From NCBI RefSeq assembly GCF_007994985.1, contig NZ_VOQF01000007.1:186001-250000 (forward strand): a DNA stretch of 64,000 bases, written 5' to 3'. Of the stretch, positions 14,023-54,222 are shown piece by piece. This stretch comes from Metabacillus litoralis (lineage in GTDB: Bacteria; Bacillota; Bacilli; Bacillales; Bacillaceae). The notes below the pieces were generated by a model, which worked only from the letters and a program-made list of their open reading frames with translations, was not told the DNA's origin and made no database searches. The first letter of the stretch is position 1, and each line of letters opens with the position of its first letter. The position numbers and the translations under genes were made by a program.

Positions 14023-14316
14023 AAAAAACCTTCCCACCCCTCATAAGACTCCACATTATTTTGTGTGCCAAAGGGGCAAAAAGGTTAATAAACTTTTCGC
14101 GGTACCACCCTTCTTCATGGTCAAATCATATGACCACCTTACGAACAGATAACCTGTTCCCTTTTGTAACGAGTACCGAAGAATGGGACTCGGTCAATCC
14201 TACTAAAAATTCGGATTAACACTCAGAGGTGAGTTCACCTATGGGAGTATCACCGGCTTCCACCTTTACCGGCTCTCTGTAGATACTTGACCAAAGACTA
14301 CTTATCCTCTTCATCG
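14023..14316 (-). promoter_or_regulatory. T-box leader of the ilv-leu operon, leucine specifier CUC
   Basis: tRNA-sensing riboswitch. The T-box sequence GGGTGGTACCGCG is at 14098-14110 (minus strand). The specifier region reads GAA-CUC-ACC with CUC (Leu) at 14231-14233; the same GAA-xxx-ACC frame gives UUC in the pheS leader of this window, which supports the reading. The terminator (AACCTT...AAGGTT with T6) is at about 14023-14083. Uncharged tRNA-Leu should favour the antiterminator and switch the operon on. Confidence 0.95.
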
Positions 14317-14320
14317 TTTT

Positions 14321-14349
14321 ACTATATGATAGCTGTTAGCTTACATGAA
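14321..14349 (-). promoter_or_regulatory. Candidate sigma-A promoter of the ilvB T-box leader
   Basis: TTCATG (14344-14349), 17-base spacer, TATAGT (14321-14326), placed so transcription would begin just before Stem I. It overlaps the 3' end of ilvE. The -35 is poor, so readthrough from the ilvE promoter is an alternative. Confidence 0.45.
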
Positions 14350-27390: not shown

Positions 27391-27605
27391 AAACGAAAAA
27401 ATAAATTCGTTCTTTACAATGAGATAGCTCTCCAAGAATATAAAAACTCTTGACAATTTTACATTTTTTAAATGTAAAACCAGCAATTAAAACAAATGGT
27501 GCTTTAATCACTTCGGCGAATATTCCTTTCACCAGCCTTCATCGGAAACCATTTCTCCTCAAGCAGGTTACTAATAATGTTCGCACCTCTACCTTCATTT
27601 AACAA
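27391..27605 (-). promoter_or_regulatory. Lysine riboswitch (L box) of lysC
   Basis: Minus strand shows the conserved aptamer pieces in order: GGTAGAGGTGCGAAC, AGTAACC, GAGGAGAAATGG, GGTGAAAGG, CGCCGAAGTG, then TTGGAGAGCTATC before the terminator. Lysine binding should favour the terminator and shut lysC off. An open frame across it (27338-27532) is coincidental. Confidence 0.95.
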
Positions 27606-29852: not shown

Positions 29853-30167
29853 TTAAAGGTGCTTGTTCAAAACTTCTGCAAGTGCTTCTTTTGGTTGATA
29901 TCCAACAGCTTTGTCAACAACTTCGCCATCTTTTAATACTAATAAAGTTGGGATACTCATAACACCAAATTTACCAGCTGTTTCTTGGTTTTCATCAACA
30001 TCAACTTTAACAATCTTCACTTTATCTCCCATATCTGTATCAAGTTCTTCAAGAACTGGAGCAATCATCTTACATGGTCCGCACCATGGTGCCCAAAAAT
30101 CTACTAATACTACACCTTCGTTTGTTTCACCTGAAAAAGTTTGATCTGTTACATTTGTTATAGCCAT
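29853..30167 (-). CDS. trxA: Thioredoxin
   Basis: General dithiol reductant. 104 residues, classic fold. Active site WCGPC with the redox pair Cys29 and Cys32; cis-proline in SIPTLL. ATG with AGGAGGA. Monocistronic: own promoters and terminator. Confidence 0.98.
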
Positions 30168-30280: not shown

Positions 30281-30324
30281 ATAGTTTTTTTACTCTTAAT
30301 TTTTCAAGCAAACCATCTAATTGA

Positions 30325-30855
30325 TTTTTTCAACCATCCTTTTGTATTTGTCGACCATCAAACCCAGTTTATCGACCATTCTCCTGTATTTATCGATCAT
30401 GCTCTCAACTTTGCGCGCCATCCGCTCTCTTTCCGACCATCAAACCAAATTTATCGACCATTACCCCGTATTTGTCGATCATAGTCTCAACTTTGCGCTC
30501 CTGCTGCTCTCTTTCCGACCATCAAACCTAGTTTATCGACCATTCTTCTGTATTTGTCGATCATGCTCTCATCATTGCGCTCCTGCTGCTCTCTTGTCGA
30601 CCATCAAACCCAGTTTATCGACCATTCTCCTGTATTTATCGATCACGCTCTCAACTTTGCGCGCCTGCTGCTCTCTTACCGACCATCAAACCCAGTTTAT
30701 CGACCATTCTCCTGTATTTGTCGACCATGCTCTCATCTTTGCGCGCCTGCTACTCTCTTACCGCTTCAAAGCGAAAGTTCAGTTTATCGACCATTCTCCT
30801 ATACTACATACTGACCATGATCTTAACTTTGCGCTCCAATTGCTCTCTTTAAGAC
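30325..30855. repeat. Tandem array with exact 82-bp period, about six copies
   Basis: The motif TTTATCGACCATT begins at 30368, 30450, 30532, 30614 and 30696 (spacing 82 each time) and at 30783 (spacing 87, a 5-base insertion in the last copy); a shortened copy precedes the first. Each unit has three related sub-motifs: TTTATCGACCAT, TTTATCGATCAT 21 bases on, and CCGACCATCAAA about 40 bases further. The middle of the unit is CTCAACTTTGCGC. 82 is not a multiple of 3, so the unit changes reading frame every copy. Open frames of up to 183 codons cross it but lack conserved starts; not called as protein. Confidence 0.9.
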
Positions 30856-30902
30856 TTTCACACCTTCTTTAGCGAATTTCAACAATTCTTAAATACACAA
30901 AT

Positions 30903-30945
30903 AAAAAAAAGGTAAAAGCACACTTAAAGCGTGCTTTTACCTTTT
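30903..30945 (-). terminator. Terminator of the fad-etf operon
   Basis: AAAAAGGTAAAAGCACGC/GTGTGCTTTTACCTTTTT stem and T8 on the minus strand, directly after the etfA stop. Confidence 0.92.
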
Positions 30946-31923
30946 TCATGCGTGTACGTTTAACTTTTTAAACTCTTCTGTTAGTAACGGAACTACTTCG
31001 AAAAGATCGCCTACGATTCCGTAATCAGCAACTTTGAATATATTTGCTTCTGGATCTTTATTAATAGCCACTATAACTTTAGAATTTGACATTCCAGCTA
31101 AATGTTGGATCGCACCGGAAATTCCACAAGCAATGTACAAATCAGGTGTTACAACCTTCCCTGTCTGGCCGATTTGTAAAGAATAATCACAATATTCCGC
31201 GTCACATGCACCACGCGATGCCCCAACTGCTCCGCCAAGAACGTCAGCTAATTCTTTCAATGGTTCAAAACCATCCTCACCCTTTACTCCACGACCACCT
31301 GCAATAACTACCTTTGCTTCTGATAAATCGACACCTTCAGTAGCTTTGCGGACTACTTCTTTAACAATTGTACGTAAATCCTTGATCTCGACAGATAAAG
31401 CACGAACATCACCTGTTCTAGACTCATCTTTTTCTAATGAACTAATATTATTTGGACGTATCGTAGCAAAAATGATTCCATCTGTTACGATTTTCTTTTC
31501 AAAAGCTTTACCTGAATAAATTGGACGTGTAAACACGACATTCCCACCAGCAACTTCAATGGAGGTTGCATCAGAAATTAGTCCTGAGCTTAGCTTTGCC
31601 GCTACTTTTGGTGATAGATCTTTTCCTAACGCTGTATGTCCAAACACAATACCCTCGGGATTTTCCTCTTTAATTACAGCTAAAACTGCTTGAGAATAAC
31701 CATCAGGAGTGTATGTGCTAAGTTTTGCATCCTCCACTATTATTACACGATCTGCTCCATAGTGGATTAACTCCTTACCAAGCGATTCAACCTGGTCACC
31801 TAGTAATACAGCGATTACTTCTCCACCCTCAGAGATGGTTTTACCTGCTGCAATTGCTTCAAAAGATACATTTCTTAATGATTGATCACGAGCTTCACCT
31901 AATACAAGTACTTTTCTAGCCAT
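30946..31923 (-). CDS. etfA: Electron transfer flavoprotein alpha subunit
   Basis: FAD-binding subunit that takes electrons from acyl-CoA dehydrogenases. 325 residues from ATG 31923 (MARKVLVLGEARD) with CAGGGGG upstream; the longer frame is rejected. The C-terminal FAD motif PDLYIACGISGAIQHLAGM is intact, as are VIAGGRG and VVAINKD-like segments (IVAINKDPEANIF). Last gene of the operon. Confidence 0.97.
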   Translation of the reverse strand: MARKVLVLGEARDQSLRNVSFEAIAAGKTISEGGEVIAVLLGDQVESLGKELIHYGADRVIIVEDAKLSTYTPDGYSQAVLAVIKEENPEGIVFGHTALGKDLSPKVAAKLSSGLISDATSIEVAGGNVVFTRPIYSGKAFEKKIVTDGIIFATIRPNNISSLEKDESRTGDVRALSVEIKDLRTIVKEVVRKATEGVDLSEAKVVIAGGRGVKGEDGFEPLKELADVLGGAVGASRGACDAEYCDYSLQIGQTGKVVTPDLYIACGISGAIQHLAGMSNSKVIVAINKDPEANIFKVADYGIVGDLFEVVPLLTEEFKKLNVHA

Positions 31924-31977
31924 GATTATTTCCCCCTGTTCAAATATTTTTCTCCCTATCACTCTATTAATCTATGA

Positions 31978-43695: not shown

Positions 43696-43779
43696 ATACA
43701 ACAGCTTGTGAGGTCTTAATAAGGGGGTAAATCCCTAGAATGCAGTCTAATTTTCAGTCATGTTAAAGGATTGGTTCAG

Positions 43780-43846
43780 TTTATCATCGATTTTAATGAT
43801 TTATCGACGATTTTCCAAATTTATCAGCGATTCTGCAAATTTCGAC
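43780..43846. repeat. Tandem array with exact 20-bp period, 3.5 copies
   Basis: TTTATCATCGATTTT (43780), TTTATCGACGATTTT (43800), TTTATCAGCGATTCT (43820), then a partial TTTCGAC (43840). Same core as the arrays at 30325 and 52203. Lies between rnhC and the pheT terminator. Confidence 0.85.
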
Positions 43847-43887
43847 AAAACAGAAGCTATACATTACGTTAAAAAAGTCAAACAAAA

Positions 43888-47486: not shown

Positions 47487-47756
47487 AAAAAACCCATCCC
47501 AGAAAGGGACGAGTTTGAATTCGCGTTACCACCCTTGTTAATCGTACATAGAAAAACTCATACGACTCACTTCATTTCCATAACGGTAAAAACCGGAACA
47601 CCTTTACATATTTATCATATGGTCTAAGTGTCAACTCGAGAGGTGAATTCATTTATCTCTATCATAAAAGTGCTTTCAGTCTAAGGCACTTTATCCCTGA
47701 ATGAACGAATGATAAATTACTATGCTCTGTCATCGTTTTGTTTCATATGTAATTTC
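47487..47756 (-). promoter_or_regulatory. T-box leader of pheST, phenylalanine specifier UUC
   Basis: T-box sequence GGGTGGTAACGCG at 47522-47534; specifier UUC (Phe) at 47645-47647 in GAA-UUC-ACC; terminator AACTCGTCCC/GGGATGGGTT with T6 at 47487-47518 (minus strand). Confidence 0.95.
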
Positions 47757-52018: not shown

Positions 52019-52202
52019 TCTGGCAGGTTAGTAGTGTTTATACATTTTACGAGAATTTTTGTGATTTATGCTAATTCATTGGACGGATAACTTCTTGAGT
52101 ATATGGAATCAGTTTTGCAGAAGGTGGCAATCTAAGGATGTGGTGGCTTTCTTTGTAAGTGGGCTTTTTCTCAATAGAGGTGTATTTTGTCGAAAAATGT
52201 CT

Positions 52203-52296
52203 AATCGACGATAAATCCGAAAAATCGCTGATAAATTTGCAGAATCGACGATAAATCGAGAAAATCGACGATAAATTCAAAAAATCGCTGATAAAT
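52203..52296. repeat. Tandem array with exact 20-bp period, five copies
   Basis: AATCGACGATAAAT or AATCGCTGATAAAT begins at 52203, 52223, 52243, 52263 and 52283. The two variants run GACGAT, GCTGAT, GACGAT, GACGAT, GCTGAT. Reverse complement is ATTTATC(GT/AG)CGATT, the same core as the other two arrays. Lies between ysdA and the VTT gene. Confidence 0.9.
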
Positions 52297-53995: not shown

Positions 53996-54082
53996 TAGCC
54001 ACCTCCAAGGTTTTATCAAACTGAATAGTAGTTTTTCAAATCCGTTTAATTGTAGATAGATCTTGGTTTTTTTATTGTAAAA

Positions 54083-54222
54083 TAAAAAAGTGCGGATGTA
54101 TAAACACCCACACTACGATTGTATATAAAAATTCATCGCAACCTGTCAACTACAAACGGATGTGTCAATCAGGTGAGAAGCGGGTGCTTCTACTTGTATA
54201 TATGAAAGACTATTCAATTACC
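54083..54222 (-). promoter_or_regulatory. L20-type leader of infC-rpmI-rplT
   Basis: On the minus strand AGAAGCACCCGCTTCTCACC and paired segments precede a terminator (AGTGTGGGTGT/ACATCCGCACT with T6, 54083-54115). CACCC in the 5' part can pair with GGGTG of the terminator as an antiterminator. This agrees with the L20 autoregulatory leader of Firmicutes. Confidence 0.8.

Follow-up and report, generated by a model that had tools for sequence, protein, structure and literature searches.

The 64-kb stretch of DNA analysed here (the window) carries, in the gap between etfA and trxA, a tandem array with an 82-bp unit, hereafter the 82-bp or class B array. By its sequence the window genome belongs to a Metabacillus near M. 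crassostreae, the two sharing 99% identity in EtfA. The locus contains the following features.

29853..30167, minus strand: trxA (thioredoxin), the next gene behind the array
30312..30872, minus strand: the 82-bp-unit array (class B), which reads away from the etfA terminator and is built of units of four sub-sites of about 20.5 bp
30352..30763, minus strand: five 82-bp units without gaps, as delimited by Tandem Repeats Finder (TRF)
30905..30947, minus strand: terminator-like hairpin of etfA, immediately ahead of the array
30946..31962, minus strand: etfA (electron transfer flavoprotein alpha), 3' end towards the array

A pattern search of the window finds TTTATCGACCATT exactly at 30368, 30450, 30532, 30614, 30696 and 30783; a wider pattern gives 44 near-matches against a shuffle mean of 17.1, a count that none of 100 shuffles reaches. 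TRF reports a period of 82 for 30352-30763, with 5.0 copies, 88% matches, 0% indels and a score of 642, the top of the ten rows for the window. Self-match by lag is 0.70 at 82 and 0.65 at 164; the next lag is 21 with 0.42, and the mean over lags 5-174 is 0.28. The tandem array is therefore real, as the first-pass annotation of this DNA had described it: the exact 82-base recurrence is borne out by the five evenly spaced TTTATCGACCATT sites and the TRF period, which holds without breakdown, and the last copy at 30783 is indeed displaced by 5 bp. Partial copies lengthen the array to about 30312-30872, and no inverted repeat was reported inside it. Each unit comprises four sub-sites of about 20.5 bp, CGACCA, CGACCA, CGATCA and GCGC(G/T)CC, at spacings of 21, 21, 19 and 21 bp; in the last full unit one core is CGACCA, not CGATCA. 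The annotation had placed sub-sites at offsets 0, 21 and 61. These are present, but it missed the fourth, TTGCGC(G/T)CC at about 40, as well as the dozens of related 20-bp arrays and the order-wide relatives described below, so that it is supported in part.

The array does not encode a protein. The 183-aa plus-strand frame that crosses it has no Pfam match and only two hits among 5.8 billion proteins, both unnamed and both looking like translations of other 82-bp-type arrays, and the unit length is not divisible by 3. Protein-coding repeats were rejected on these grounds, in agreement with the earlier claim that the repeats are non-coding; array translations may explain some spurious 'hypothetical proteins' in carrier genomes. 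Nor is an RNA structure supported. Rfam gives five matches in the window, none at any array, and neither strand of the 82-bp array forms a more stable fold than its shuffles do (z -0.5 and 0.4).

The 82-bp array appears to be the higher-order form of a genome-wide set of helix-phased non-coding arrays, apparently undescribed, that is seen in many Bacillus-like bacteria. A looser core pattern gives 67 matches in the own genome, six of which fall in 82-bp-type arrays, and 0 for the reversed-pattern control; at least 31 dispersed arrays belong to a second form, class A. In this design a 13-bp core, TTTATCNNCGATT, recurs every 20 bp with a 7-bp spacer, five copies being the commonest, and is followed by an end motif (the leader), AGACAATTTTCGACAAAA, so that array and end motif together span about 113 bp. 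CGAC of the end motif lies within 22 bp in 72 of the 82 class A arrays of three species. Two class A arrays lie inside the window.

43780..43832, plus strand: shorter class A array of three cores with a 20-bp period, in the gap where the rnhC-like and pheT genes converge
43833..43853, plus strand: end motif of that array, towards the pheT 3' end
52183..52202, minus strand: end motif of the 52203 array, AGACATTTTTCGACAAAATA, whose reverse complement holds TTTTGTCGAAAA
52203..52295, minus strand: class A array made of five TTTATCNNCGATT cores with a 20-bp period

The 82-bp array resembles class A in core, pitch (20.5 bp), 10-bp phase and place. The consensus of class A folds to -0.6 kcal/mol on the core strand (43 elements) and -6.1 kcal/mol on the sense strand (24 elements), and no base pair is altered on both sides on either strand. 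A literature search that included the core strings found no paper on such a repeat, as judged by titles and abstract openings, which fits the annotation's remark that no known Bacillus element has this form.

Within the arrays GC-rich and AT-rich half-turns alternate with a 10-bp period. Among 51 Metabacillus arrays and 38 of 40 loci from other genera, each of the eight groups has more GC/AT power at 10 bp than at 20 bp, and no more than 4 of 300 column permutations attain the observed level; the helical phasing that had been suggested from sub-site spacing is thus upheld by computation. The most phased 120-bp stretches of the whole window, 30363-30482 and 52175-52294, are both arrays, and the next two fall inside what we take to be clpX- and cvpA-like genes. 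At 44 of 52 Metabacillus loci and 37 of 38 others, the array is overlapped by the stretch with the strongest phase. Wedge-model curvature is mild in Metabacillus class A (mean z -1.6 against -0.5 for flanks) and reaches z -2.6 in five overlapping stretches of the 82-bp array; because it is near flank level in other genera (-0.5 against -0.2), we claim a phase of bendability and not static curvature. Spacers are richer in GC than flanks (57% against 34%) in Metabacillus only.

The arrays are placed with respect to genes. None of 99 lies inside an open reading frame (ORF) of more than 200 aa, ORFs being called on length only. The gene on the leader side is directed at the array in 79 of 98 cases (45/59 in Metabacillus, 34/39 elsewhere), orientation on the far side is random (same strand 49, other strand 50), and a terminator-like hairpin is found on the end-motif side of 39 of 99 arrays and on the other side of 15. 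In the own genome 21 genes are directed at an array, including eno, prfB, clpP, hisIE, rnz, pdp, cls, pheT and etfA; 19 of these were checked with NCBIfam, 4 being without a match at E 1e-10.

The sites are inherited, and the core changes far less than its surroundings. Orthologs in one or both relatives were found for 27 of the 31 fetched G000 arrays. In the 26 of 55 ortholog pairs with equal copy number, the 29 unequal pairs being excluded, three species pairs show 13/528, 21/550 and 6/330 changes in the core (1.8-3.8%), compared with 53/190, 90/200 and 31/120 in spacers (26-45%), 14-28% in flanks and 43/96, 60/100 and 20/60 at the NN positions (33-60%). A smaller, earlier ortholog set gave the same order of core, spacer and flank change. 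Core positions 3, 6, 9, 12 and 13 show zero change between species. The core columns of repeats 2-5 are mostly near-invariant (53 elements), which argues for recognition by base and not by AT/GC alone. The NN words differ among the three species (chi-square p 3e-11, copies treated as independent; the arrays were fetched by a pattern favouring A/G at the first N, equally in the three genomes). Copy number is five in 54 of the 82 class A arrays, and one locus has five, four and three copies in the three species, in 20-bp steps.

R1, a sequence-only model built from 43 class A elements, matches 19 of 21 Metabacillus genomes and, at E 0.01 under stricter filters, 134 of 299 genomes of the order, from 59 of 117 genera; at E 1e-4 it matches 93 of the 299 (hand count). 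In a phylum-wide draw of 299 genomes, the own genome is the sole match at E 1e-4 (0/298 others); among the rows listed, this draw holds two members of the family and one of the order. The core pattern matches 20 of 80 genomes of the family, only three of them richly (67, 58 and 51), and in g6, the best sampled of the other genera, four genomes show a single match each, compared with two matches of the reversed control. When the genomes of 30 named loci were searched with R1 at E 0.001, 18 matched, some with just one to four matches; carriers include M. halosaccharovorans, M. kandeliae, Neobacillus kokaensis and mesonae, Bacillus infantis, Cytobacillus oceanisediminis, Rossellomorea aquimaris and two Sutcliffiella species. 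The core word is lineage-specific: read away from the leader it is TCGCGGATA(T/A)A in one family and TGGCAGATAAA, ACGTCGATA, TCGCCGATAAA, TCGCAAATA or TCGTTGATATA in other lineages. At 40 loci outside the genus, which come from 17 genomes and were chosen among the best model matches, copies per array number five (21 loci), six (8), seven (4), four (2) and eight (2), with 11, 32 and 37 once each; a few counts include the leader box, and one locus (L242) is weak. The two long arrays, L232 and L233 of genome G181, hold 37 and 32 copies at 20 bp and have a different core.

We tentatively propose, at a little short of an even chance, that the arrays are docking platforms for a putative sequence-specific DNA-bending protein and serve as a boundary between transcription units. 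Such a protein would occupy one core at every second helical turn, assemble along one face of the DNA and bend or wrap the array; the protein-DNA assembly behind the terminator would then form a boundary between neighbouring transcription units that may halt read-through RNA polymerase, pin supercoils or both. A base-specific core every two turns, combined with alternating GC content of half-turns, is the pattern expected if a protein that recognises the core also bends or wraps the DNA, and the location behind gene ends suggests the boundary role.

A number of observations weigh against this proposal. Five is merely the modal copy number: 29 of the 55 ortholog pairs are unequal, and by the strict core pattern M. 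crassostreae has more arrays of four copies (11) than of five (7). The spacers of the 52203 array are changed at 0/20 and 2/20 positions relative to two relatives, near the core level, while its flanks are changed at 14-32%. Arrays were located via the core, which inflates core conservation, and the counts include orthologs, besides the calling of ORFs on length only. The leader-side gene faces away in 19 of 98 arrays, including that at 52203. The family is patchy, 12 of the 30 named genomes being without a match (e.g. M. idriensis, Priestia koreensis, Cytobacillus firmus DS1 and Mesobacillus campisalis), and hence dispensable. No protein that binds the arrays was found, and none of the neighbouring gene families is specifically associated with them; a shared neighbour gene as the reader of the core was rejected, the clusters consisting of ABC transporters, other common families or orthologous loci. 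A link between the two forms is that the core matrix of class A gives 10.8 bits at each of the six TTTATCGACCATT sites, with none of 200 shuffles reaching the observed top-ten mean, but the shuffles break the repeat, so that six identical sites count as one. R1 matches the window at 52184-52295 and 43767-43850 only and misses the 82-bp array even at E 10. Because this whole-element model misses it, it is only from core and design that we infer the 82-bp and 20-bp forms to be one family, and our confidence in the docking-platform proposal is slightly lowered.

The same features can be read in other ways. The arrays might be strong DNA gyrase sites, whose 10-bp phasing wraps about 120 bp where positive supercoils collect behind transcription units, as in E. 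coli BIME-2; we consider this unlikely, if not markedly so. The core word varies by lineage, whereas gyrase itself is conserved. A study of the E. coli gyrase motif and the strong sites of BIME-2 (PMC6379681) describes sites of about 120-130 bp with phased 10-bp G/C variation behind genes, by which the phasing and the placement of the arrays would both be well explained, and the arrays resemble them in length and 10-bp G/C phase, the published motif itself not having been scored. That motif is, in the same study, a degenerate G/C phase, whereas the arrays repeat every 20 bp a base-specific core whose bases are near-invariant and which differs between lineages, and the attraction of gyrase to downstream regions seems not to be hard-wired in the motif score. 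The arrays may instead be non-autonomous mobile elements, or one-ended remnants with transposase sites of about 20 bp, inserted one-way beside terminators. This would account for a discrete element with a defined end motif, for the dispersed copies, their orientation to gene ends and patchy distribution, and for loci at which a relative lacks the element. We nevertheless hold it to be unlikely: by eye no inverted end was noticed in 60-80 bp of flanks, no transposase is common to the neighbourhoods, most arrays are old by the ortholog count given above, and the core is kept while the spacers diverge, unlike in a dead insertion.

Neutral slippage would make the arrays products without a function. 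It would fit the copy numbers, which differ among orthologs (by 20-bp steps at one locus), and the 32-copy and 37-copy arrays of G181. It is improbable in view of a core that is kept against faster-changing spacers and flanks, a five-copy mode in several genera, the orientation bias and a phase that exceeds the column-permuted controls. An action as RNA, in which read-through transcripts would present repeated motifs for protein or small RNA binding, fits the orientation bias towards the upstream gene; we regard it as quite improbable, given the terminator-like hairpins on the leader side, as at etfA, the lack of compensatory changes on either strand and of Rfam matches at the window arrays, and a 10-bp GC/AT phase that is a property of double-stranded DNA, though RNA sites without structure may still exist.

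Returning to the docking-platform proposal, a broader form of it, to which we give distinctly less than an even chance, is a chromosomal punctuation system, carried by much of the order Bacillales, in which each lineage would have a private 20-bp word, present in about five copies on one helix face behind dozens of genes, and a putative fast-evolving DNA-wrapping protein would co-evolve with that word genome-wide, as satellite DNA in animals does with the proteins that bind it. Repeats that occur in between a third and almost half of the genomes sampled from the order, keep their core between species and sit behind gene ends would suggest a new level at which chromosomes are organised or transcription is insulated in the Firmicutes, and the lineage-specific words offer a natural test of how dozens of scattered sites change together with the protein that binds them.

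Several known systems share part of this design. REP/BIME elements are dispersed and intergenic, with several families species-specific and mostly downstream of genes (PMC3733652), and the arrays are likewise intergenic and mostly behind a gene (79/98, with 0/99 in a long ORF). REP sequences are palindromes of 20-40 bp, whereas the arrays are helix-phased direct repeats without a hairpin, mostly in one orientation to the gene; neither an inverted repeat in the 82-bp array nor a compensatory change in the class A folds was reported. No neighbour family recurs beside the arrays, RAYT (REP tyrosine transposase) not having been searched for genome-wide. TAACTGA repeats of Beggiatoaceae, Cyanobacteria and Bacteroidetes (PMC4679880) are, like the arrays, short, intergenic and direct, but their unit is a heptamer and in one genome most of them lie immediately ahead of start codons, whereas the arrays have 13-bp cores at 20 bp behind gene ends. 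The pneumococcal BOX is an interspersed repeat of a Firmicute chromosome, as the arrays are; BOX, RUP and SPRITE have extensive secondary structure (PMC3049150), unlike the arrays, for which none is supported.

Plasmid iterons are direct repeats of about 20-22 bp bound by protein; the arrays, unlike them, lie at many chromosomal loci with no recurrent replication gene alongside. CRISPR arrays consist of near-identical repeats with unique spacers of about 30 bp and were rejected as an identity on the basis of the 13-bp core and 7-bp spacer (cas genes were not searched). Tn7-like ends are transposase sites of about 20 bp at both ends of a mobile unit; the arrays are one-ended, with no second end noticed in the printed flanks, no transposase search having been made.

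The end motif may contain a Spo0A box. The box core TGTCGAA, as given in an excerpt of PMC3485338, is present in TTTTGTCGAAAA, the reverse complement of the end motif at 52183-52202. TTGTCGA occurs in the leader of 31 of 60 Metabacillus arrays, compared with 0 and 1 of 60 in control windows; outside Metabacillus it is found in 2 of 6 arrays of group f11 and 2 of 7 of f28 and in none of the other eight groups (f21 0/11). The Spo0A reading of the end motif is suggestive and not universal. Similar leaders occur in several genera, at times with two boxes 10 bp apart.

Used as a query, the 82-bp array matches 3 of 60 genomes, all Metabacillus, and three places in the own genome. Among 80 named EtfA loci that were fetched, trxA was located on 78; core matches lie in the etfA-trxA gap of M. 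crassostreae (L047), where the array is about one unit shorter than in the window, and 76 of the other 77 have none, the contig of the remaining one (L122) being cut. At nine other loci that were printed, the etfA end or flank runs into the trxA upstream region and the array is absent. A further tandem array with a spacing of about 90 bp was seen as side matches at G000:C56:177866-178604.

In genome G003 model matches lie at bases 120-254, near the starts of contigs C5, C18, C28 and C34, so that arrays may break assemblies. About 20 of 24 merged array loci on the G015 chromosome lie past 2.3 Mb of 5.23 Mb (hand count; origin not located). A bias in chromosome position was dropped as an idea, since G013 differs from the lopsided G015, whose origin was not located. 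The ordinary Rfam matches of the window, at 27417-27599, 14069-14323, 47502-47742 and 54078-54201, are a lysine riboswitch, two T-box leaders and an L20 leader, and the lysine riboswitch precedes an aspartokinase-like gene.
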